From: a virus
Reading direction: 5' to 3' (one strand)
Length of the DNA: 35,667 bases
Virus record (IMG/VR): IMGVR_UViG_3300036791_000963
Coordinates: 1 to 35,667 of that record
Part shown: piece after piece, positions 1,733 through 34,544 of the stretch
How positions within the stretch are numbered: position 1 is the stretch's first letter
Layout: each line of letters begins with the position of its first letter
Position numbers and translations under genes: made by a program
The notes under the pieces: generated by a model
What the model saw: the letters and a program-made list of their open reading frames with translations, nothing else
Databases searched by the model: none
What the model was told of the DNA's origin: nothing

Positions 1733-2236
1733 ATGAGCAGAGAACATCGAACAAAAGTTGAGTCCATATGCGAAACCTGCGGCAAGACGTACTTGCGTTA
1801 CACTTGGGCAACGCACCGAAGATATTGCTCTATGCGGTGCCACTACACGAAACTGAAAGTTGCCGTCAAATGCGCTATCTGTTCCACCGATTTCCTTGTC
1901 CATCGTTCCCACTACGTTAGAAACAAAGGACATCATTACTGCTCTCGAAAGTGCTACAATCTCCGACGCAATCACGCTGCCCAACTCAAGCGCGGAACAA
2001 ATCATTTCGAGCAACTCCTTAGGAACTCTGTGTGCGAATGTGGAGTAAGTAAGTTTTACCTTCTCCAAATTCATCACATCGACGGCAACGACTACAACAA
2101 CCAGCCAGAAAATCTCGAAGTTGTATGCTCCAATTGTCATATCAAACGTCACCTTTCCAAGCGAAAAAAGGATGGAGAATGGGTCTACAGTCCAAAGCAC
2201 GCGTTGACCCCTCGCGAACTATTAGCGTCGATCTAG
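1733..2236 (+). CDS. HNH homing endonuclease (plus strand, inside the minus-strand tail block)
   Basis: This 167-residue protein has three Cys-pair zinc knuckles in its N-terminal half (ICETCGKTY, CSMRC, KCAICS, YCSRKC) and a C-terminal HNH core (LQIHHIDGNDYNNQPENLEV, then VCSNCHIKRH). The HH-N-H residues and flanking CxxC pairs match free-standing HNH homing endonucleases of phages, which cut a cognate allele and spread by double-strand-break repair. It is on the opposite strand to every neighbour and sits between two tail genes without breaking either: the small gene at 1543-1686 keeps its Shine-Dalgarno, and the upstream gene ends 7 bases beyond this stop. Its promoter is not obvious. GC content is lower than that of the flanking genes, consistent with recent acquisition. 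Confidence 0.9.
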   Translation: MSREHRTKVESICETCGKTYLRYTWATHRRYCSMRCHYTKLKVAVKCAICSTDFLVHRSHYVRNKGHHYCSRKCYNLRRNHAAQLKRGTNHFEQLLRNSVCECGVSKFYLLQIHHIDGNDYNNQPENLEVVCSNCHIKRHLSKRKKDGEWVYSPKHALTPRELLASI

Positions 2237-6454: not shown

Positions 6455-7695
6455 GTTGAGGCCGTCCAGCTATCTACGTTTTCCCAAACAGCAGAGTTGT
6501 TCAGAACCTGGAGCTGCACCCCTCCTGGCGGACCTGCGATGGCCACCAATCGCGCTTTAGTGCCTATCATAACGGTGCTGCCACCGACTATGCTCCCAAT
6601 CTCCCTCGTTTGAATGCCAGTGCCGCCGTTCTTACTGAAAGTATGTAATTCTCCCGTCGAGTATCCATAATTTCGCCAGGTAACATCGCCCCTGCCATAA
6701 TTGCTAGGGTCGTCTATCTCGTAAACCGGATTATTCCATTTTCCCGCAGTGTCCATTTCTTCTGAATCCCATTGCAAAATCTGCAATGGGTGAGTGCCAG
6801 TAACGCTGGCGCCTCGCACGCAATGGATGACTTCGTATCTGTTTATCAACGAGGAATGTTCTGAAAAACCGAACTCGATTCCTATTTTACAGCAGTCTGC
6901 TACAACCTGTTTCGCGTTGGCGAACTCGCCCCAGCGATAGCCGTTGTAGAAACCCTGGACAACGATATTGCCTGAAAGATCAGACATGATTGACTTGAAT
7001 CGGCTGGGGAGAATAATGCCGTAGCTCGTCGCCACAGTAGGTTCAATGATACCCAATTCTGCTGTGTTACTCCCGGCGATAACGTTCACATCCTTTAAGC
7101 AAATATAAGGCAGGTGCATTAGATTGAGACCAGAGTAGGAAGGATTCGCGACAGTCTGCAGGGTAATATCCTCAAACGTCGCAAAGATTGCGGTGGCTTC
7201 GTCGTAAGCTGACGATGGATTTCCGCGTCCATTAAATACCGATGGCCCTGTTCCGCTTCCGGCAGACAGCGTTGACTTGATGGTCGTGCCGGATGGCATA
7301 TTATCAGACGTTTGAAACACGTTCGGCCAATAGGTCGGATTAACGAAACCTTTGAACACGAGAGGCACCTTTGGCCCTGGAATGGGCAGTGTGGGGAACA
7401 AGATTTGCGCATTGCGATAAGTCGGGTCTTGCAGCGGGCCGCCCAGGATGTAAGGGCCAGCATCAGGGAAATAGATCGTGCCACCGCCGTTCGTGACCAC
7501 TAGATTGATTAAAGTCTGCAACGCTGCGGTGTCATCCGTAACACCGTCGCCCACCAGCCCGTTATCTTTGACGTTGTAAGTCCCTGCGGGCAGACTGCTG
7601 CCGCCCCCACCTGGCGTAGTGTCATTCAGCCGCTTGAACCCGGCGAAATCCAGATCGCTCTGGAGCAGCCCGTTTTTAATGGCAAACCTGTTCAT
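6451..7695 (-). CDS. tailspike-like protein with pectate-lyase-type beta-helix start
   Basis: The 414-residue protein has a short virion-binding N-terminus (MNRFAIKNGLLQSDLDFAGF) and then VKDNGLVGDGVTDDTAALQ at about residue 42, the signature of pectate-lyase-3-like tailspikes whose beta-helix binds or cleaves host polysaccharide. TIYFPDAGPYILGG follows, as in the family. A Gly-rich hinge (PGGGGSS) separates the anchor from the spike. Catalytic residues cannot be assigned by eye. The gene overlaps both neighbours by ATGA within the fibre set, so it is likely a receptor-binding or depolymerase protein. Confidence 0.85.
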   Translation of the reverse strand: MNRFAIKNGLLQSDLDFAGFKRLNDTTPGGGGSSLPAGTYNVKDNGLVGDGVTDDTAALQTLINLVVTNGGGTIYFPDAGPYILGGPLQDPTYRNAQILFPTLPIPGPKVPLVFKGFVNPTYWPNVFQTSDNMPSGTTIKSTLSAGSGTGPSVFNGRGNPSSAYDEATAIFATFEDITLQTVANPSYSGLNLMHLPYICLKDVNVIAGSNTAELGIIEPTVATSYGIILPSRFKSIMSDLSGNIVVQGFYNGYRWGEFANAKQVVADCCKIGIEFGFSEHSSLINRYEVIHCVRGASVTGTHPLQILQWDSEEMDTAGKWNNPVYEIDDPSNYGRGDVTWRNYGYSTGELHTFSKNGGTGIQTREIGSIVGGSTVMIGTKARLVAIAGPPGGVQLQVLNNSAVWENVDSWTAST

Positions 7696-9248
7696 GCTGT
7701 GAACGAACTGAACGGCAGGCCGGCGCCGCCATTGTAAAGGGCCGTGATCTCGCCAGCGGTCAGTTTGCGGCCCCAGAAACCGAGTTCATCTATCATCCCC
7801 TTGACGGTTCCCGCGCTTGAGCCGTTCCCTCCTACTTCAAGCTCGGTAGTGACCGCTGCAAACGCTGCTGCTGTTGCACCGGTGTAAGTCACCGAATCAT
7901 TGACTCGCAAGCTGACTTTCTGAGTGCTGGAATCATACCAGCCCACAAGATGAGTCCACGTTGAGGGAGTCAGCGGCACATGAGAAATCGCAGGTGCGCC
8001 GCTAGTGTTAGTAGCGCCGAAAATGATGCCGTTAGCCGTCGTAGTGTCGTGGTAAAAGAAATACTGAAAGGTGGTTCCGTCATACTTGGCCATCAAGAAG
8101 TTAGAGGCCATGGCAGGATCGACATTTACCCACATCTGCCACGTAAAGTCTCCTGCTGGAGCGAGTGAACTGCTAGTTGGGGCGCGCAAGAAGTTGTTCG
8201 CAGTGGGGTTGTTAAAACTGGCGGCATTGCCAACTTTCCCGACAACAATGGGCACTGTGTTAGACTGAGCAAGAGGGTTTAACCCCATTTCATCTGGCAC
8301 TGCGCCTAATGGTATGGTTTCCATTCTCCAGTAGCTGATGAGAGCGTTGAGCAGGTGCACGACAGAATTATAACTTAACGACGCGGGATCAGTGAGTGTG
8401 CCGCTGTTTGTGGTGGAGATCGTTTTGATGCCAGTTGACGCCGGCGTATAAGTAAACGTTGCCGAGGGCGCTGCGTTGGTGAGGCCGACAGTCGAGGGCG
8501 TAAACGTCCCGGCGGCTCCTGTTCCAGCGTCGTGCGGAGTGATCGTCACGGTGCCGGAAACAGTCACACCGGCTGCAAGCGCTACCGTGAAATTCGTTGA
8601 GGCAACGGACACTGTACCTGTGGTTGGGCCCGTGAGCGTGTATGTGTATGCGACCGAAACGTAGCTAAGCGACGCAGGATCAGTTAGCGCTCCGTTGTTT
8701 GTGCATGAAATCGTTTTGGTGCCAGTAGAGGCGGGCGTGTAAGTGAACGCGCCGGACGGGGCAGCTGTAGTCAGCAGGATGGTTGTGGGCGCAAAGGTTC
8801 CACCTGCCCCGCCATCATGCGGTGTAATCGTCACTGGTGCTGCCACCGTTGTCCCGACCGGGAGCGCAACCATAAAACTGCCCGAGGCAATGCCAGTCAC
8901 CCCGCTGGTTGGCCCGGTCAACCCGTACGTGGTCGCGCCGCCCCCTGTCGGAGCGCCTGCCACGGCCCATTGCAGAAAGTAGTTGGACGAATCCGGTGCA
9001 CCGCTCAGCTGGATCGTGAACCCGGTGGCGCTCTTTGCCGTAAGAGTGCCAACGACAATGTTAAGGGCCGAAGCGTCCACCGTGTTGAGCACCTGGCACC
9101 CGCCGAAAACCCATGAATTGTCAGCCATCGCCGCAAGGAAAGTGACGGCAATAAAACTTTGACCGTTGACCAGCGGGGTCACGCCTTGCCGAGTAAAACT
9201 CGTGATACCTGGCGGCCCCTTGATATTGCCTTCCGGCGCCCAACTCAT
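7692..9248 (-). CDS. tail fibre with two Ig-like repeats and a LamG-like lectin domain
   Basis: The 518-residue protein starts MSWAPEGNIKGPPG, a short collagen-like attachment motif common at the start of tail fibre modules. It then carries two tandem 95-residue beta-sandwich repeats (TYGLTGPTSG... and TYTLTGPTTG..., each with VTITPHD, FTYTPASTG and LTDPASLSY). The C-terminal 190 residues look like a concanavalin/LamG domain (DFTWQMWVNVDP, THLVGWYDSSTQ, MIDELGFWGRKLTAGEI), which usually binds sugars. I chose the ATG at 9248 because it overlaps the upstream stop as ATGA; an in-frame ATG at 9260 exists. Likely an adhesin of the virion. Confidence 0.9.
   Translation of the reverse strand: MSWAPEGNIKGPPGITSFTRQGVTPLVNGQSFIAVTFLAAMADNSWVFGGCQVLNTVDASALNIVVGTLTAKSATGFTIQLSGAPDSSNYFLQWAVAGAPTGGGATTYGLTGPTSGVTGIASGSFMVALPVGTTVAAPVTITPHDGGAGGTFAPTTILLTTAAPSGAFTYTPASTGTKTISCTNNGALTDPASLSYVSVAYTYTLTGPTTGTVSVASTNFTVALAAGVTVSGTVTITPHDAGTGAAGTFTPSTVGLTNAAPSATFTYTPASTGIKTISTTNSGTLTDPASLSYNSVVHLLNALISYWRMETIPLGAVPDEMGLNPLAQSNTVPIVVGKVGNAASFNNPTANNFLRAPTSSSLAPAGDFTWQMWVNVDPAMASNFLMAKYDGTTFQYFFYHDTTTANGIIFGATNTSGAPAISHVPLTPSTWTHLVGWYDSSTQKVSLRVNDSVTYTGATAAAFAAVTTELEVGGNGSSAGTVKGMIDELGFWGRKLTAGEITALYNGGAGLPFSSFTA
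8365..8935 (-). repeat. two tandem 285-bp repeats coding Ig-like domains
   Basis: Two adjacent copies with a 285-base period (for example the GGTTGG of the LTGPT codons at 8908 and 8622) encode the two Ig-like domains of the fibre gene. Long stretches such as those around 8690-8740 and 8400-8450 (gatcagt, tgtttgtg, gaaatcgtttt/gagatcgtttt) are clearly alike in DNA, so the duplication is fairly recent or kept similar by recombination. Confidence 0.85.
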
Positions 9249-10450
9249 GGTTTCCTCCAAGTCATCGTTGCACCGTCGAACTGGAACACGTCCCCGGACA
9301 ACGTGTTGAGATACATGTCCTGCGGCTGCAATTCAGACGGCGGCGGACTCGTAGGCGTAGGATCACTTGTACCAGTGAACCATAGGCTGCCGCGCGTTGG
9401 AATTATTGCCTGTGCCGGGGGCCGCATAAAAACCGTTCCTTGATCGCACGAATCGGTGAGTGTCGTTACCGTCCCCCCGCTCCAGTCAGAGCTTTCGCAC
9501 CAGAACGTAAAGCACGGTTTGCAGAACGCGTACTTGAGCACTTGCCCCTGCGCCTGTAGCGCGTCTATCTCGCCTTGCAGGGAGTTCATAGCTTTGCCTT
9601 CATACTTCTCCGCTATCATGGAGCGCATCTGCAAGTCTTCGTTCCCGCTCTGGTCAAACTCGTAAAGCGTATCGGCAAACGAAGAGTTGACCACGTAGCT
9701 TTCCCATTTTTCCAGGAACGGCACCCACGTCCAGTTGCTCGTATCTGTAAGAACGGCCGTGGTGTCATTAAGCGCTTGGAACACCTCGCCAGTTACAAAA
9801 TCAAACGTCGCGCTGCCCCTTGTATATGTCTTTCCCGCGACGTGCGCCGACATCGTGTAAACGGGGTTCGGCATGGAATAGCAAATGAAAACAGTCGGCC
9901 CCGGTGGATTGCAAACGTCGATGCCAAACTCGCTTGGGTGATAGCATAGTTTTGGCTGGTCTCCGCACCCACGCGCGCCCCCGCACCAGTTCCCGTTTCG
10001 CCCCCACATCCGAGGATCTTCCCTGTATACCCCTGTCACCATGCCTATCGAGCGTTTGCACGGCTGATCGTAGGCGATGTAGCTGTCAACCGGATCAAGT
10101 ATTTGCCAGTGAACGGTGTCGGTAGGTAAATCGCCCATAACCGGGTCGGTTGGCGCGCTCCCCAGCACTTGGTAGTAGGTCGTGTTCGGCAAATAGAATA
10201 CCTCGTCCGGGTTGCCACTTGACGGGTTTGCCCTGTAATACTGGTGGTCACTGCGCCAGACCTGCCTGAAGCTGCGTTCCTCAGTGACCCGCCACTCAGG
10301 CCACGGCCAGCCTTGCACCAGTTCCCGCACCCGCTCGTTGATGTGGTACACGATGGCGCGCGGCATGTCTGTCGGCATTTCCTTGCGCGGATTGCGCCCG
10401 TGAAGCGTCACTACCCTGTCGAAAATATGTCTGAATTTCTTGGTCCTCAC
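9245..10450 (-). CDS. virion adaptor-like protein, 401 residues, paralogous N-terminus
   Basis: The start is a GTG at 10450 overlapping the upstream TGA as GTGA; the resulting N-terminus RTKKFRHIFDRVV matches MRTEKFRSVLWQT of the 3162-4706 product, which supports this start. Further shared features are WPWPEW near residue 50 and an YTRGSATFDFVTGEVFQA module. The middle carries LQMRSMIAEKYEGKAM, helical, and the C-terminus (MYLNTLSGDVFQFDGATMTW) resembles modules preceding fibre anchors. It sits between capsid-proximal genes and the fibres, so it probably links head or tail tube to fibres. No precise family is recognised. Confidence 0.85.
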   Translation of the reverse strand: MRTKKFRHIFDRVVTLHGRNPRKEMPTDMPRAIVYHINERVRELVQGWPWPEWRVTEERSFRQVWRSDHQYYRANPSSGNPDEVFYLPNTTYYQVLGSAPTDPVMGDLPTDTVHWQILDPVDSYIAYDQPCKRSIGMVTGVYREDPRMWGRNGNWCGGARGCGDQPKLCYHPSEFGIDVCNPPGPTVFICYSMPNPVYTMSAHVAGKTYTRGSATFDFVTGEVFQALNDTTAVLTDTSNWTWVPFLEKWESYVVNSSFADTLYEFDQSGNEDLQMRSMIAEKYEGKAMNSLQGEIDALQAQGQVLKYAFCKPCFTFWCESSDWSGGTVTTLTDSCDQGTVFMRPPAQAIIPTRGSLWFTGTSDPTPTSPPPSELQPQDMYLNTLSGDVFQFDGATMTWRKP

Positions 10451-14469: not shown

Positions 14470-15153
14470 TCACGCTTCAGTTTCCGGGAGCGTGTGCAGC
14501 ATCTCGCGTTGCATACTAAGCAGCGACCTGCGTTTGATCTCGTTGCTCAGTTCCTGATCCGTGAAGTCCTCAATTCTCCTCATCGGGCGACGGTTGTTAA
14601 TTTGTTGAGAGGCAGTAGCCCAACGACAGTTCTCGGGAGCGTATCCACCGTTTACATCTATTCGATCAAGCGACGTTCCTTTTGGCCTTCTTCCCATATC
14701 TGAAATGAAATTCTTAAATTGCATCCATCTTTCGCAAACCTTTATCCCACGGCCGCCATACTGATCGTAATTGCGGTGATTAGGTTTCAGGCAGCGCGCT
14801 CTCATCGAATTCCAACAGTTCCATTCAGGGGTTTGGCTCATTCCATGCGTTCTTCTCGTAAACACCAGTGGCGAACGCAGTTTTTGTGGTGCGACACAAC
14901 CGCATGATTTGGTATGGCCATTGGCCAGATTGCCTCTCGGAGTTCCATGTTCATTTCCGCATGTGCATCTACACCACCAATAAATGTGACCTTTTTTATC
15001 TCGGTATGGATAGAGCGCTGTCAGCCTTCCGAATTCGCGCCCGGCGAGATTTACGAATCTTCCTCGCGTTAGTTCTAGCCGCCTTGGTCTTTTTACTCGA
15101 ACTGACACTTCCGCCTTTACGTCCAATTTCGCTAAGGTAAGCTCTAATTGCAT
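14470..15153 (-). CDS. zinc-finger HNH-type homing endonuclease carrying a neighbour's C-terminal tail
   Basis: Residues from about 35 onward match a common phage homing endonuclease type: [37 protein letters not shown] (zinc), then [20 protein letters not shown], and [20 protein letters not shown], the HNH-like catalytic stretch. The first 33 or so residues (from ATG 15153) are an out-of-frame reading of a different small gene (14996-15166), so the true start may be internal. The last 18 residues, [18 protein letters not shown], nearly repeat the C-terminus of the upstream gene's product (SLLSMQRQMLQTLPGTED). This endonuclease thus appears to have landed in gene sequence and captured a displaced tail. 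Confidence 0.85.
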
Positions 15154-15166
15154 CGTGTTTAAGCAT
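14996..15166 (-). pseudogene. small Lys/Arg-rich gene interrupted by the endonuclease insertion
   Basis: A second frame through the 5' end of the endonuclease gene reads [20 protein letters not shown] followed by [15 protein letters not shown]. That '[11 protein letters not shown]...KAARxNARK' pattern is typical of small basic phage proteins, far more gene-like than the overlapping endonuclease frame. After about residue 36 it runs into endonuclease sequence and ends at a TAA (56 residues in all). It starts 26 bases after the stop of the upstream gene. I infer a native small gene whose 3' part was replaced or cut by the endonuclease insertion. Confidence 0.5.
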
Positions 15167-15191
15167 AGCGAAGCGGCTTGGCTAAGTCAAG

Positions 15192-15569
15192 TTAATCTTC
15201 TGTGCCCGGTAGTGTTTGGAGCATTTGTCTTTGCATACTGAGCAGCGACCGGCACGTTTCCCATGCGCACTTTTCAACGTCGTAAAGTGTGAGCGTGGTG
15301 TGCGCCATTTCCAGAACGTCGCTTAACCCCTTTAGCTGCGCCTGATAGTTCTCATCCGCGCGGGCATACTGTTCCGCTGCAGCAGCGCTATCGCCGGCGC
15401 GCAACCGCGTTACCACGAAGCGGGCGAGCAAATCCTTGCGCCTGTCCTTGTCAAAGCGCTCGACTGTCCGCGCCATGCCGACTTCCGACGCCATGAGCTG
15501 CATCTTGCGCGCGGCCTCTTTCATCCGCTTCTGAATCCGGTAAACATCGGAAGCGTCAGGCGTGTTCAC
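15192..15569 (-). CDS. helical hypothetical protein, 125 residues
   Basis: Starting from a GTG at 15569 (overlapping the ParB-like gene's end by 14 bases), the product begins NTPDASDVYRIQKRMKEAARKMQ and is almost wholly helical, with an Ala-rich centre (GDSAAAAEQYARADENYQ) and C-terminus SLLSMQRQMLQTLPGTED. An internal ATG at 15524 is an alternative start. The family is not recognised. Its C-terminal 18 codons are present again, diverged, at the end of the endonuclease gene 700 bases downstream, and the copy here is the AT-richer one. Confidence 0.7.
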   Translation of the reverse strand: MNTPDASDVYRIQKRMKEAARKMQLMASEVGMARTVERFDKDRRKDLLARFVVTRLRAGDSAAAAEQYARADENYQAQLKGLSDVLEMAHTTLTLYDVEKCAWETCRSLLSMQRQMLQTLPGTED

Positions 15570-16494
15570 GGGTTTTGCGCATTTCTTGGGGTTCGCGCTC
15601 CCAGACCAGTTTCGGAATGACGCCGCGCCCCTTGCAAGAGTCGCACTTGACAGGATTCTTCCCATTGCACCGAAGGCAAACATGCCGGGGAATCGCACCC
15701 GTCTTGATTCTAGTAGCCACATCGCCCAAACCTGCTAGGACACTGTTCACGTCCATGTTGAACCACATCACGTCGTTCTGATCAAGCTTTCTGGCGAACG
15801 CCTTGGCTTTGTCCACAAGAGCAAGAAGTTCCTCAGCTTCGGGACGCCGCCCCCAGTAGTATGAGGCGTCGCCACTAGGAATAGGATAACCGTCCTCATC
15901 GCAAAAGTCAGAGTCGTATTTTCCTTTTTCACGTTGCCGTATCTCATGTGCCAGCGCCTTCGGGGAGGCGGTACCAGTATGCAAGGCTTTCTTCTCCTCT
16001 TCGGTGCCTTCCCGTTGCACCTTCTCAATGTCACCCGCAGTCCTGCGACTTATCTTAGCCTCGTCTGCTTTCTCACTTATAGTCCGTGAAATATGGGAAC
16101 CAGTTCCCACATCTTCCGTTTTGTCTCTATTTTCTTCCATCGTCATCATTGATATAATGTGATATTTGTCAGAAGCGCTAAGATGGCGGCGGGCGAGATT
16201 GAACCCCTTCATTATTTCCAACGCCTCCTCGTCCGTCCCGGTAAATTCCCAGCATGGCGGGTTGGTTATCCGAGCCAGTTTACACGCCTTAACGCGGTGC
16301 TCGCCCTCGAGAATTCCCCCTTCGTAGATGACTATGGGCACAAGCAGCTTTCCTACAGCCTTAACACTCTCTACCAAACGCCTGAAATCATCGTTCGACA
16401 TCCCGGGGATCAGAGGTTTCCCGTCAATCCCCCGGGTTAGTCTGTGCGGTTTCAGTTTGAACGGATCAACCGCGATTTTTTGGAACTTTCCCAT
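15556..16494 (-). CDS. ParB-like protein with C-terminal DnaJ-type zinc ribbon
   Basis: The 312-residue protein opens with a ParB/Srx-type domain: residues near 35-70 read DDFRRLVESVKAVGKLLVPI then GGILEGEHRVKACKLA, matching the 'xxSIxxxGxxxPixV....ILdGehRxxAa' core, and ARRHLSASDKYHI follows. The middle is an acidic helical region. The C-terminus has CLRCNGKNPVKCDSCKGRG, a CxxC-x(8)-CxxCxGxG zinc motif. ParB-like proteins can bind DNA, hydrolyse CTP or nick DNA. It lies in the head gene block with an AGGAG ribosome site. Role: perhaps genome handling at packaging or host-control; inferred. Confidence 0.85.
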   Translation of the reverse strand: MGKFQKIAVDPFKLKPHRLTRGIDGKPLIPGMSNDDFRRLVESVKAVGKLLVPIVIYEGGILEGEHRVKACKLARITNPPCWEFTGTDEEALEIMKGFNLARRHLSASDKYHIISMMTMEENRDKTEDVGTGSHISRTISEKADEAKISRRTAGDIEKVQREGTEEEKKALHTGTASPKALAHEIRQREKGKYDSDFCDEDGYPIPSGDASYYWGRRPEAEELLALVDKAKAFARKLDQNDVMWFNMDVNSVLAGLGDVATRIKTGAIPRHVCLRCNGKNPVKCDSCKGRGVIPKLVWEREPQEMRKTREHA

Positions 16495-23299: not shown

Positions 23300-23925
23300 A
23301 ACGGATACAGCGCCATCCCCTCATGTTGTAGCCTAATCCCGGTGTCCAGCATCACCCTGAACCCGTGACCCCTCGCCAAATCGCAGAACCCCCAGTCCTC
23401 GCTCAATAGTTCCCCCTCCTCACTGATCGGTTGGCAAAATATGTCCCATTCCTGGTTCCCGCAATAATGCTTGTACCCTTTCGCAACCCCGGAGAGCCCC
23501 TCCAGCACGTTGCGCTCAATCTTCAGAAACCCCGTCCCCACGCGCATCGCTTCCACTACGTCCCCAAAAGGTACGGCCCCCACGGGCGCTAACAACCGGG
23601 CGCACGCCTGACGTTCCTCTTGCCTCTTCAAATAATACAATCCCCCGACTATCCCGTGCTTGCTCTCCAGCAACCTTCTCAGATCCGCAGGGGTAAATAC
23701 TATGTCCAGATCGATAAACACCAGCGCGTCCCCCAGATCGCTCTCACGCAAAAACTGCGCCACAGCGCAGTTGCGCGCCCTGTTCACATACACCCCGTTG
23801 CTGAACTCCGCCCACGTAAAATCCCAGCCCTCAAGCGCTTTCAACGCGTTCATCAACGAATGAAAAAATTTCATCCGCATGCTCCCGCTGCTCGTGACCA
23901 ACGGCAAGAACACCTTGCGCTTCAT
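23296..23925 (-). CDS. GT-A fold glycosyltransferase
   Basis: The 209-residue protein starts MKRKVFLPLVTSSGSMRM, has NRARNCAVAQFLRESD (nucleotide-sugar region) and DALVFIDLDIVFTPADLRRL with the DxD metal motif at residues 72-74, then GIVGGLYYLKR and a C-terminal SEDWGFCDLARGHGFRVMLD, as in Anp1-like/family-2-related glycosyltransferases. It transfers a sugar from a nucleotide donor. I take ATG 23925, which overlaps the methyltransferase remnant's stop as ATGA. Possible targets are modified DNA bases or virion proteins; undecided. Confidence 0.87.
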   Translation of the reverse strand: MKRKVFLPLVTSSGSMRMKFFHSLMNALKALEGWDFTWAEFSNGVYVNRARNCAVAQFLRESDLGDALVFIDLDIVFTPADLRRLLESKHGIVGGLYYLKRQEERQACARLLAPVGAVPFGDVVEAMRVGTGFLKIERNVLEGLSGVAKGYKHYCGNQEWDIFCQPISEEGELLSEDWGFCDLARGHGFRVMLDTGIRLQHEGMALYPL

Positions 23926-24050
23926 GCCAGTGCCAGCCCCAATGTCACGTTGCACCGCTCCTCGATCAGTTTCACATACGCGGGGTTCAGCTCGATGAGC
24001 ACAGCCTTGCGGCCAAGCTCAAGCGCCACCGCGCCGGTTGTGCCGCTGCA
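23922..24050 (-). pseudogene. orphan 3' end of a DNA methyltransferase gene
   Basis: These 42 codons read CSGTTGAVALELGRKAVLIE and then LNPAYVKLIEERCNV..., the SAM-motif-I-to-end segment of an N4-cytosine/N6-adenine DNA methyltransferase. The counterpart in the longer methyltransferase upstream reads GSGCTGEVALSLGRKCIGIE. The fragment lacks all upstream catalytic parts, begins exactly where the endonuclease gene ends, and keeps an ATGA overlap with the glycosyltransferase gene. Its high GC content (about 60% by eye) fits the phage. It is best read as the native tail of the methyltransferase gene, displaced by the endonuclease cassette. Confidence 0.8.
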
Positions 24051-24468
24051 AATCCTTGCGGTGAATATTGATGTGCTCGGCGCGTGTGACCAAAGCGTAA
24101 TTTGAGATTTCATCGTGCAGTGTGTCTCCGTCGATGTGGTGAACCATTAAACCCACTGATATTTTGCCGTATTTGGACTCCCATAAATAAACGGAAAACA
24201 TCTTCCAATCTGAAGGTCGTCCATCGACTTTGGTTTTTATCCATCGGCGTGATTTGCGGTTCTTGTCTGTTCGCGTTTGAATTGATCCGACAGGGAGAAG
24301 ATTTCGGGCAACCTGACCTTTCTTGAATCGTGTGGCGTGTGTTCCCACCGGCGACCATCCGAGCTTGCCCTTGTTCCACGGAGTGCTGCCTTTTTTGAAC
24401 GCTGTTTTGTTCGGGGCTGCGCCAGCAGCAAATTGGTTGCCGATCAAATACGAATTGTCCCGGCTCAT
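24019..24468 (-). CDS. HNH homing endonuclease inserted in a DNA methyltransferase gene
   Basis: The 149-residue protein has NUMOD3-like motifs (FKKGSTPWNKGKLG, RFKKGQVARN) for DNA binding and a C-terminal HNH core, LMVHHIDGDTLHDEISNYAL followed by EHINIH. It starts at an ATG 28 bases after the methyltransferase stop. Its last residues (QRHNRRGGA) are encoded by methyltransferase sequence read in another frame, which marks the insertion junction at about 24050, within codons for the methyltransferase's FxGSGxTG motif. Targeting a conserved catalytic codon stretch is typical of homing endonucleases. Confidence 0.88.
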   Translation of the reverse strand: MSRDNSYLIGNQFAAGAAPNKTAFKKGSTPWNKGKLGWSPVGTHATRFKKGQVARNLLPVGSIQTRTDKNRKSRRWIKTKVDGRPSDWKMFSVYLWESKYGKISVGLMVHHIDGDTLHDEISNYALVTRAEHINIHRKDLQRHNRRGGA

Positions 24469-24495: not shown

Positions 24496-25819
24496 CTAAG
24501 CAAGTGGTAATCCAATAGTAACGCAACATCTTTTCTCAGCTAATTTCACGTACTCAGGATTCAATTCTATCCCGATGCACTTGCGACCTAAAGACAAAGC
24601 AACTTCTCCCGTGCATCCCGATCCAAAAAAGGGATCAAGAACCGTACACGGCACGGGGTCAAGGCTGTGCGGACAGCCCGGTTGCCAGCCGGTTGCTTTG
24701 GTAATTGGTAAAACATCATTGCGGATCTCCGCTTGTTTAGCGTAGGGGCCGTCCATCGTCTTGCCATCTCGATACGTCTCATGGTCAAACGTTCGGCTAC
24801 GCTCAATGCAACGCTCCCACGGCGCGCCGCACTTCGGGCAGCAGCCACGGGCGCTTGTCCCCGCCAATATGCAAATTTTCGGAATCTCCTCAGGAAATGT
24901 TGCGAAATGAGCGTCAGCATAGGCTTGCGTGTTGATGCGCCAAACGTTTCGACGATTTCGGGTCAACGCACGTTCTCCGTTTGGAAACTCAGACTTGTCG
25001 AGTTCCAGCATCCCTTCCTTCACGTATTTGCTATTTGGATAGAAGCGTTGTCTCAACACTCCGTGTGGTCGCTTGTCGTCGGCGTAACTTGCTGAAATCG
25101 GTTCCTGAATAGCGATGTTGTCGTAGAAATAATGAGCGGACTTTGTGAGCATAAAGATTTTCTCATGCGCTTTTGTGCAGCGGTCTGTCGTGCTTTCCGG
25201 CATGGGATTGTCCTTGGCCCAAACAATCTCGTCCCGCAGCCACCACCCGTCTTTTTGAAGAGCCATCGCCACCATCCACGGAATCGGAATTAAGTCTTTC
25301 GGTTTGAATCCAGGCGGGATTGGGGTCGGATCAATGAGACTTCCGGCATTAGTCGCTTGCTTGCGAAATTTTGATTCCTCTGGATTGCCCCCGCGCCCGC
25401 CTCCCGCATAACTTGAACCGAGATTAAGCCAAAGGCTGCCATCCCATCTCAGGACTCGTTTCACCTCACGAAACACCTCGACCATCTTGGCTACGTACTC
25501 CCCCGGCGTTGCCTCAAGGCCAAGCTGCGCGTCGATCCGGCGCGCACCGCATTTGCCGCAGACGTGACGATAATTATTGAGCGCAAACCCTTCCTTATTC
25601 GATGTTCCCACAAGTGTCGAAGTAGGATCGCGCTCGGCATCCCTAAAGCGATGATCGCACCCCGATTCCCCGCCTTCCCATTCTGCCGTGCCGTAGTCGC
25701 GCAGGCCGCATTTACCAGTATGGCGGTGACGTTACACAAGTGTGTACCGATTCACTTGGAAGCGTTTTTAGAACTTCCAAAGCGTCCCCGCAGATAATCT
25801 TCAACAGGTCGCTCGCCAT
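24496..25819 (-). pseudogene. DNA N4/N6 methyltransferase with a frameshift after SPPYW
   Basis: An ATG at 25819 with a strong GGGAGGGG site starts MASDLLKIICGDALEVLKTL, then CVTSPPYW, the catalytic motif IV of beta-class DNA methyltransferases, followed at once by TAA (25712-25714). One base out of phase, the frame continues GLRDYGTAEWEGGESG... from 25707 and runs to 24496 through DGSLWLNLGSSYAGG, WWLRDEIVWAKDNPMPE (motif between IV and VIII), a CPKCGAPW zinc knuckle and DPFFGSGCTGEVALSLGRK (SAM motif I). A 370-residue piece from ATG 25611 could still be made but lacks SPPYW. Unless the shift is a sequencing error or is bypassed, the enzyme is inactive. The last 45 codons look AT-richer than the body. 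Confidence 0.82.
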
Positions 25820-34010: not shown

Positions 34011-34544
34011 ATGCTGAAGCAAGCAACATGTCATCCGAATAAGATGACCCAGTACTCCTCTGGCCTCTGCGCTGCGTGCTATCTAAGACGCAGGTATCAC
34101 AACGATCCAGATTATCGTAGAAAAGTCGTACTGAAGCGCCGAAAGTGGAGAACAGAGAATCCTGAGAAACAGGCAGAATACAATAAAAAGTGGTACTGGA
34201 AGAACAGGGAGCATTCGCTGCTGAAAGTTCGAGAGGCTAGAAAAAGAAACGGTGTTAAATGGAACCTTAATAAGCGGCTCAGACTCTATGGAATTACCCT
34301 TGAGGCGTACAACTCAATTCTAGAGAGCCAAAACGGGCTGTGCGCGATTTGCGACCGGACTCTAATCAGCAAATCTTCAGCAGTCGATCACGAACATTTA
34401 ACTGGAAAAGTCCGGGGTATCCTGTGCTCAAGCTGTAATCGCGCTCTTGGACTTTTGCGCGACAGCGATTCGCTTTTACTGAAAGCGATATCATACTTGC
34501 GAAAGCATTCGCATATCCTTCGAGCGTCCTCCAGCGCTTCCTGA
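34011..34544 (+). CDS. endonuclease VII-family protein
   Basis: A 177-residue protein with an N-terminal zinc knuckle (ATCHPNKMTQYSSGLCAACY), a basic helical linker (YRRKVVLKRRKWRTENPEKQ), then LYGITLEAYNSILESQNGLC and AICDRT, and AVDHEHLTGKVRGILCSSCN. The 'GIT.E.Y..ll..Q.G.CaiC...L.vDHcH.tGkVRGlLC..CN..lG' signature is that of T4 endonuclease VII-like (recombination endonuclease VII) nucleases, which cut Holliday junctions; many copies act as homing enzymes. Last gene of the plus-strand block. Confidence 0.9.
   Translation: MLKQATCHPNKMTQYSSGLCAACYLRRRYHNDPDYRRKVVLKRRKWRTENPEKQAEYNKKWYWKNREHSLLKVREARKRNGVKWNLNKRLRLYGITLEAYNSILESQNGLCAICDRTLISKSSAVDHEHLTGKVRGILCSSCNRALGLLRDSDSLLLKAISYLRKHSHILRASSSAS

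Follow-up and report, generated by a model that had tools for sequence, protein, structure and literature searches.

Why should the end of a phage gene be found twice, once on either side of an endonuclease gene? The question is raised by a viral record of 35,667 bases (IMGVR_UViG_3300036791_000963), the whole of which was analysed and is referred to here as the window. On its minus strand, a ParB-like gene is followed by a gene for a product of 125 amino acids (15192-15569, its GTG start overlapping the end of the ParB-like gene), then, after a spacer of 38 bases, by an HNH endonuclease gene (14470-15153). A preliminary description of this DNA had proposed that the endonuclease gene carries a diverged copy of the tail of the 125-residue gene, that a second locus of the same architecture lies at a methyltransferase gene, and that the pair reflects a general mechanism rather than an accident.

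Organization of the two loci

The proposed order of gene, endonuclease and diverged tail is indeed present, with both C-termini as described. The two tail copies (15195-15251 and 14473-14529) are identical at 15 of 19 residues and 42 of 57 bases and have their stop codon at the same place, while to the left of these 19 codons (18 in the preliminary description) the 125-residue gene and the HNH gene are unrelated in sequence. The 20-base stretch said to be common to both, GGTCGCTGCTnAGTATGCAA, occurs in each copy (15231-15250 and 14509-14528) with agreement at 19 of the 20 bases. The downstream copy is in frame with the HNH open reading frame, to which it had been described as fused, and the GC contents counted by hand (about 42% upstream, 56% downstream) are close to those computed over the last 51 bases (43% vs 55%) or the last 57 (45.6% vs 56.1%). 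An attached tail and a diverged, displaced one flank the endonuclease reading frame, which is the bracketing seen in mobile open reading frames with C-terminal duplication of the Allomyces/Glomus type. No group I intron or other RNA element was matched in Rfam within the window.

Table 1. Features of the two loci (window coordinates)
Feature	Position	Strand	Remarks
ParB-like gene	15556..16494	minus	upstream of the 125-residue target gene
Body of target gene, 125-residue product, GTG start	15252..15569	minus	GC 59.8%, GC3 0.73
Attached tail of target gene, 19 codons + stop	15192..15251	minus	HNH-like codon usage; inferred replacement tail
Shared stretch GGTCGCTGCTCAGTATGCAA, upstream copy	15231..15250	minus	
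38-base spacer separating the target and HNH genes	15154..15191	minus	
HNH endonuclease proper, residues 1-208	14530..15153	minus	phrog_374 family, E 7e-63
Displaced tail copy continuing the HNH frame, 19 codons + stop	14470..14529	minus	core-gene-like codon usage; inferred native tail
Shared stretch GGTCGCTGCTTAGTATGCAA, downstream copy	14509..14528	minus	
DNA methyltransferase	24496..25611	minus	last 41 codons (24499-24621) = inferred replacement tail
HNH_3 endonuclease	24019..24468	minus	last codons and stop supplied by displaced tail in another frame
Displaced methyltransferase tail, 41 codons + stop, bodyless	23922..24047	minus	inferred native

The endonuclease of the 125-residue locus belongs to an HNH family (Table 1) whose invariant residues it keeps in full, as judged against 24 relatives; searches of its product against Pfam, NCBIfam and PDB gave no sequence match. 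The HNH protein closest to it in the C-terminal part, that of locus L092, ends ...NRRTMKSLDNFTDDELLEEIHRRGLRSF, and the C-terminal motif closing the HNH protein proper is found at that same end. Since this motif is then followed by the tail copy, the HNH protein looks essentially complete, with the tail joined onto its end. An open reading frame of 56 amino acids (14996-15166, minus strand) overlaps the start of the HNH gene in another frame; it was considered as a hitch-hiked piece of a donor gene and set aside, having no matches.

The methyltransferase locus is equally real, its tail copies being identical at 29 of 41 residues (score 139), and its endonuclease is of a different group (HNH_3, phrog_1891). 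The window contains two other nuclease genes, one HNH_3-like (1733-2236, plus strand) and one endonuclease VII-like (34011-34544, plus strand), and no tail duplication was found around either.

Similarity beyond chance

To score the similarity, pairs of stop-anchored reading-frame ends were compared, with 68,135 tails from unrelated loci as background. The pair formed by the 125-residue and HNH genes (15194/14472) scores 69; no tail of the background scores above 37 with the query. For a score as high as that of the pair, the fit gives a P of about 6e-9 per pair, there being 50 tails of this type in range, and chance similarity is excluded. Only two coding duplications of this kind occur on the minus strand of the window, 24498/23924 (score 139) and 15194/14472, and both bracket HNH genes, of two different families. 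Two further strong pairs, 8449/8740 (plus) and 8682/8391 (minus), were rejected because they read a repeat within the gene at 7692-9260 in antisense or out of frame; the repeats there (8391-8740) lie 291 bases apart and correspond to a repeated domain. The other strong pairs score 40 to 50.

Divergence of the tails

The differences between the tails of the 125-residue locus number 3, 2 and 10 at the first, second and third codon positions, so that 10 of 15 are at third positions, and dN is 0.15 with a dS of 1.65 (dN/dS about 0.09). Such an excess of synonymous differences is also what characterizes the C-terminal-duplication mobile reading frames. For the methyltransferase tails dN is 0.34 and dS is saturated, the differences again being mostly at third positions. 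As the orphan methyltransferase tail is not in the frame of its HNH gene, its protein should have been under selection before the tail was displaced. The pattern points to two orthologous tails with separate histories that later came together at one locus, and not to a recent local duplication.

Probable native and imported tails

Codon frequencies were trained on core and HNH genes, with the tails excluded except for about one codon at their edges. The attached tail of the 125-residue gene is HNH-like in codon usage and falls in the lowest 2% of 19-codon windows of core genes, while the orphan tail is core-like (46th percentile); at the methyltransferase locus, the corresponding values are 1% for the attached tail and 87% for the orphan. 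GC3 pooled over both loci is 24/60 in the attached tails and 45/60 in the orphan tails (P = 0.0002), the 125-residue locus taken by itself giving a non-significant 9/19 vs 13/19 (P = 0.32). The upstream tail (GC3 0.42) matches the HNH gene (0.46) and not the body of its own gene (0.73). When the body of the 125-residue gene is joined in silico to the orphan tail, an uninterrupted reading frame of the same length results.

Homologues of the 125-residue gene were sought by exact-peptide scans of IMG/VR and of 84,980 genomes, by tblastn against phages to E 10, in 398 genomes and in the collected loci, with none convincing. A PHROG match of low significance (E 0.03) is of no help in distinguishing between the two tails, and a DNA pattern of the tail motif run over IMG/VR returned nine matches, all short unrelated open reading frames. 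The portal and ParB-like neighbours, used as bait, retrieved just two short portal contigs that end before the locus. In consequence the polarity is read from composition, over 19 codons at the 125-residue locus. On that basis the view of the preliminary description, that the downstream copy is native and the upstream one imported at both loci, is supported, and we infer that the attached tail is a replacement that arrived with the endonuclease.

Recurrence in other phages

The search of other phages for HNH genes flanked by duplicated tails, which the preliminary description had suggested, took in about 218 further HNH loci, in addition to HNH-rich phage DNA totalling about 750 kb. Two extra cases, L089 (IMGVR_UViG_3300046323_000431) and L229 (IMGVR_UViG_3300037200_000144), were found among the former, in unrelated phages; the latter held no further clear case. 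High tail scores in L134, L137, L149, L160, L207, L271/L272 and L286 were dismissed, as these looked low-complexity, paralogous or noncoding.

L089 is the best-scoring relative of the window HNH among 598 candidates. Its positions 1-908 comprise a gene tail, an HNH gene of the same family and a diverged copy of the tail fused in frame to the HNH gene: the upstream gene ends ECGLTKTTIVRDGCQVWIWSANA and the in-frame HNH C-terminus is ECGLTKTNQSRDGCMVWIFAVK. The HNH gene starts at or just before the stop codon of the upstream gene (an ATG overlaps the stop), and a replication initiation gene lies further down. Four homologues of the upstream gene on other viral contigs have a single tail and no adjoining HNH gene; in three of the four, what look by eye like replication genes come next. 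The single tail of these endonuclease-free relatives is compatible with either polarity. In L229 (807-2172), a methyltransferase tail and its diverged copy (23/33 residues) enclose an HNH_3 gene that runs in the opposite direction, the antisense of the diverged tail forming the open start of the HNH frame. The methyltransferase gene is already duplicated there, so the copy could be the remnant of a tandem paralogue.

The claim of generality stands in part: the two further cases in unrelated phages and the single-tail relatives of the L089 gene indicate more than an accident, but the architecture is rare, and a yield of two from about 218 HNH loci is low for a regular mode of spread. The suggestion that the 20-base stretch is the target site does not hold in general, neither the L089 nor the methyltransferase locus having a comparable stretch; that it is the cleavage site of the 125-residue locus is a guess.

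Two other observations were made among the collected loci. One bacterial genome (G017) has four similar HNH genes (L202, L208, L209 and L210) with open frames of 221-222 amino acids, suggesting recent spread. Two phages (L254 and L261) have short repeats about 1-1.7 kb apart, with readings such as LPRCDEWKLA and LGDCPVAMNGS.

Origin of the arrangement

It seems probable that the 3' end of a phage gene was invaded by a gene for an HNH homing-type endonuclease, which brought along from a related phage a working but diverged version of the invaded gene's own tail. During co-infection, the endonuclease of the donor phage would cut or nick the empty gene near the boundary of body and tail, and repair of the break would copy the donor's replacement tail, spacer and HNH gene into it; at the right edge, the end of the HNH reading frame would be joined to the beginning of the native tail. 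The target gene would stay intact with the donor tail and its native tail would be orphaned, supplying at the 125-residue locus the final 19 residues of the HNH protein. With the recoded tail the gene would go on functioning, and the divergence of that tail could protect the occupied allele against further cutting. The anatomy, the similarity beyond chance, the conservative divergence, the polarity of composition and the recurrence in other phages are established by the analysis, and in the reading built on them cleavage, its site, mobility and immunity are presumed.

The polarity could be the reverse, the upstream tail being native and the orphan tail having travelled fused to the HNH gene from another phage, after an earlier insertion in the same gene. 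Both here and in L089 the HNH gene and the orphan tail share a reading frame, as would be possible for a passenger, and 19 codons carry little compositional signal. We nevertheless think this unlikely, as codon usage and GC point the opposite way at both window loci, the upstream tail resembles the HNH gene instead of its own body, and the methyltransferase orphan is out of the HNH frame. That last observation also bears on the idea that the HNH protein acquired its partner's C-terminal peptide for interaction or targeting, selection maintaining both copies. Such sharing would account for the residues kept in both copies and for the in-frame fusions at the 125-residue locus and in L089, but with the copy out of frame at the methyltransferase locus and antisense in L229, and with HNH relatives that have no such peptides, it appears very improbable.

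A local origin of the copies has also to be considered, the 3' end of the gene being duplicated (in tandem, or as a repair by-product of HNH cutting) and then diverging without any import. The copies lie next to each other and point the same way, and a phage homing endonuclease is reported to promote segmental amplification (PMC13096335). Yet the synonymous divergence is very high with the protein kept, even where one of the copies lies outside the HNH frame. GC and codon usage also set the two copies apart, and the HNH-free relatives of the L089 gene have one tail. Local duplication is, in our judgement, distinctly unlikely.

Insertion with an imported tail, if extended beyond the window, would mean that phages harbour recurrent selfish HNH elements that enter useful genes at their 3' ends, bring their own recoded replacement tail, and have arisen more than once and in more than one HNH family, as natural counterparts of home-and-rescue gene drives. 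We consider this broader proposal to be evenly balanced.

Comparison with known systems

Mobile open reading frames with a carboxy-terminal duplication are known from fungal mitochondria, in atp6 of Allomyces, atp6, atp9, cox2 and nad3 of Glomus, cox2 of Mortierella and atp9 of Rhizopus (PMC3630166), and partial C-terminal duplications near such reading frames are also described in PMC6279837. Their layout is gene, foreign tail, endonuclease reading frame and displaced native tail, with mostly silent divergence (PMC3630166). The putative phage elements resemble them in that the attached tail is diverged, protein-conserving and apparently foreign, with the probable native tail behind the endonuclease, in phase with it or not. 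They differ in residing in dsDNA phages instead of mitochondria and in encoding HNH instead of LAGLIDADG or GIY-YIG enzymes; furthermore, the native tail was identified from close relatives in the fungal cases and from composition in the phage window. Among papers citing the Allomyces paper and dealing with phages and homing, only PMC3630166 was found and no earlier phage report of the layout, which, for a search of the open-access literature, is weak evidence. We regard the phage version as new and the kind of element as already known from fungal mitochondria.

The seg and mob genes of T4-like phages, which encode free-standing endonucleases (PMC2988022), are similar in being promoter-less cassettes between phage genes, those of the mob group being of HNH type as here, and in the way they are presumed to spread, by repair of breaks when infections are mixed. 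That review does not describe them as bringing along a substitute 3' end for the preceding gene, and a word search of it gave no mention of duplication. If the reading proposed here is true, phage homing endonucleases can invade coding sequence without an intron or intein by bringing a substitute gene end, some chimeric phage genes and some orphan gene tails adjoining HNH genes would be explained, and spread, resistance and tail swapping could be tested in a fast laboratory system.

It would also provide a natural example, in a prokaryotic virus, of the cut-and-rescue logic of engineered gene drives. In HomeR home-and-rescue drives, a nuclease element is placed at the 3' end of a gene and a recoded rescue tail of 22-27 amino acids, with 22 or 27 codons changed, restores the protein and resists cutting (PMC7968924). 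The putative phage elements share with these the recoded tail and adjacent nuclease. Unlike them, HomeR is synthetic, based on Cas9 and used in insects, and the likeness is one of layout alone, implying neither an essential target nor immunity to cleavage in the phage case.
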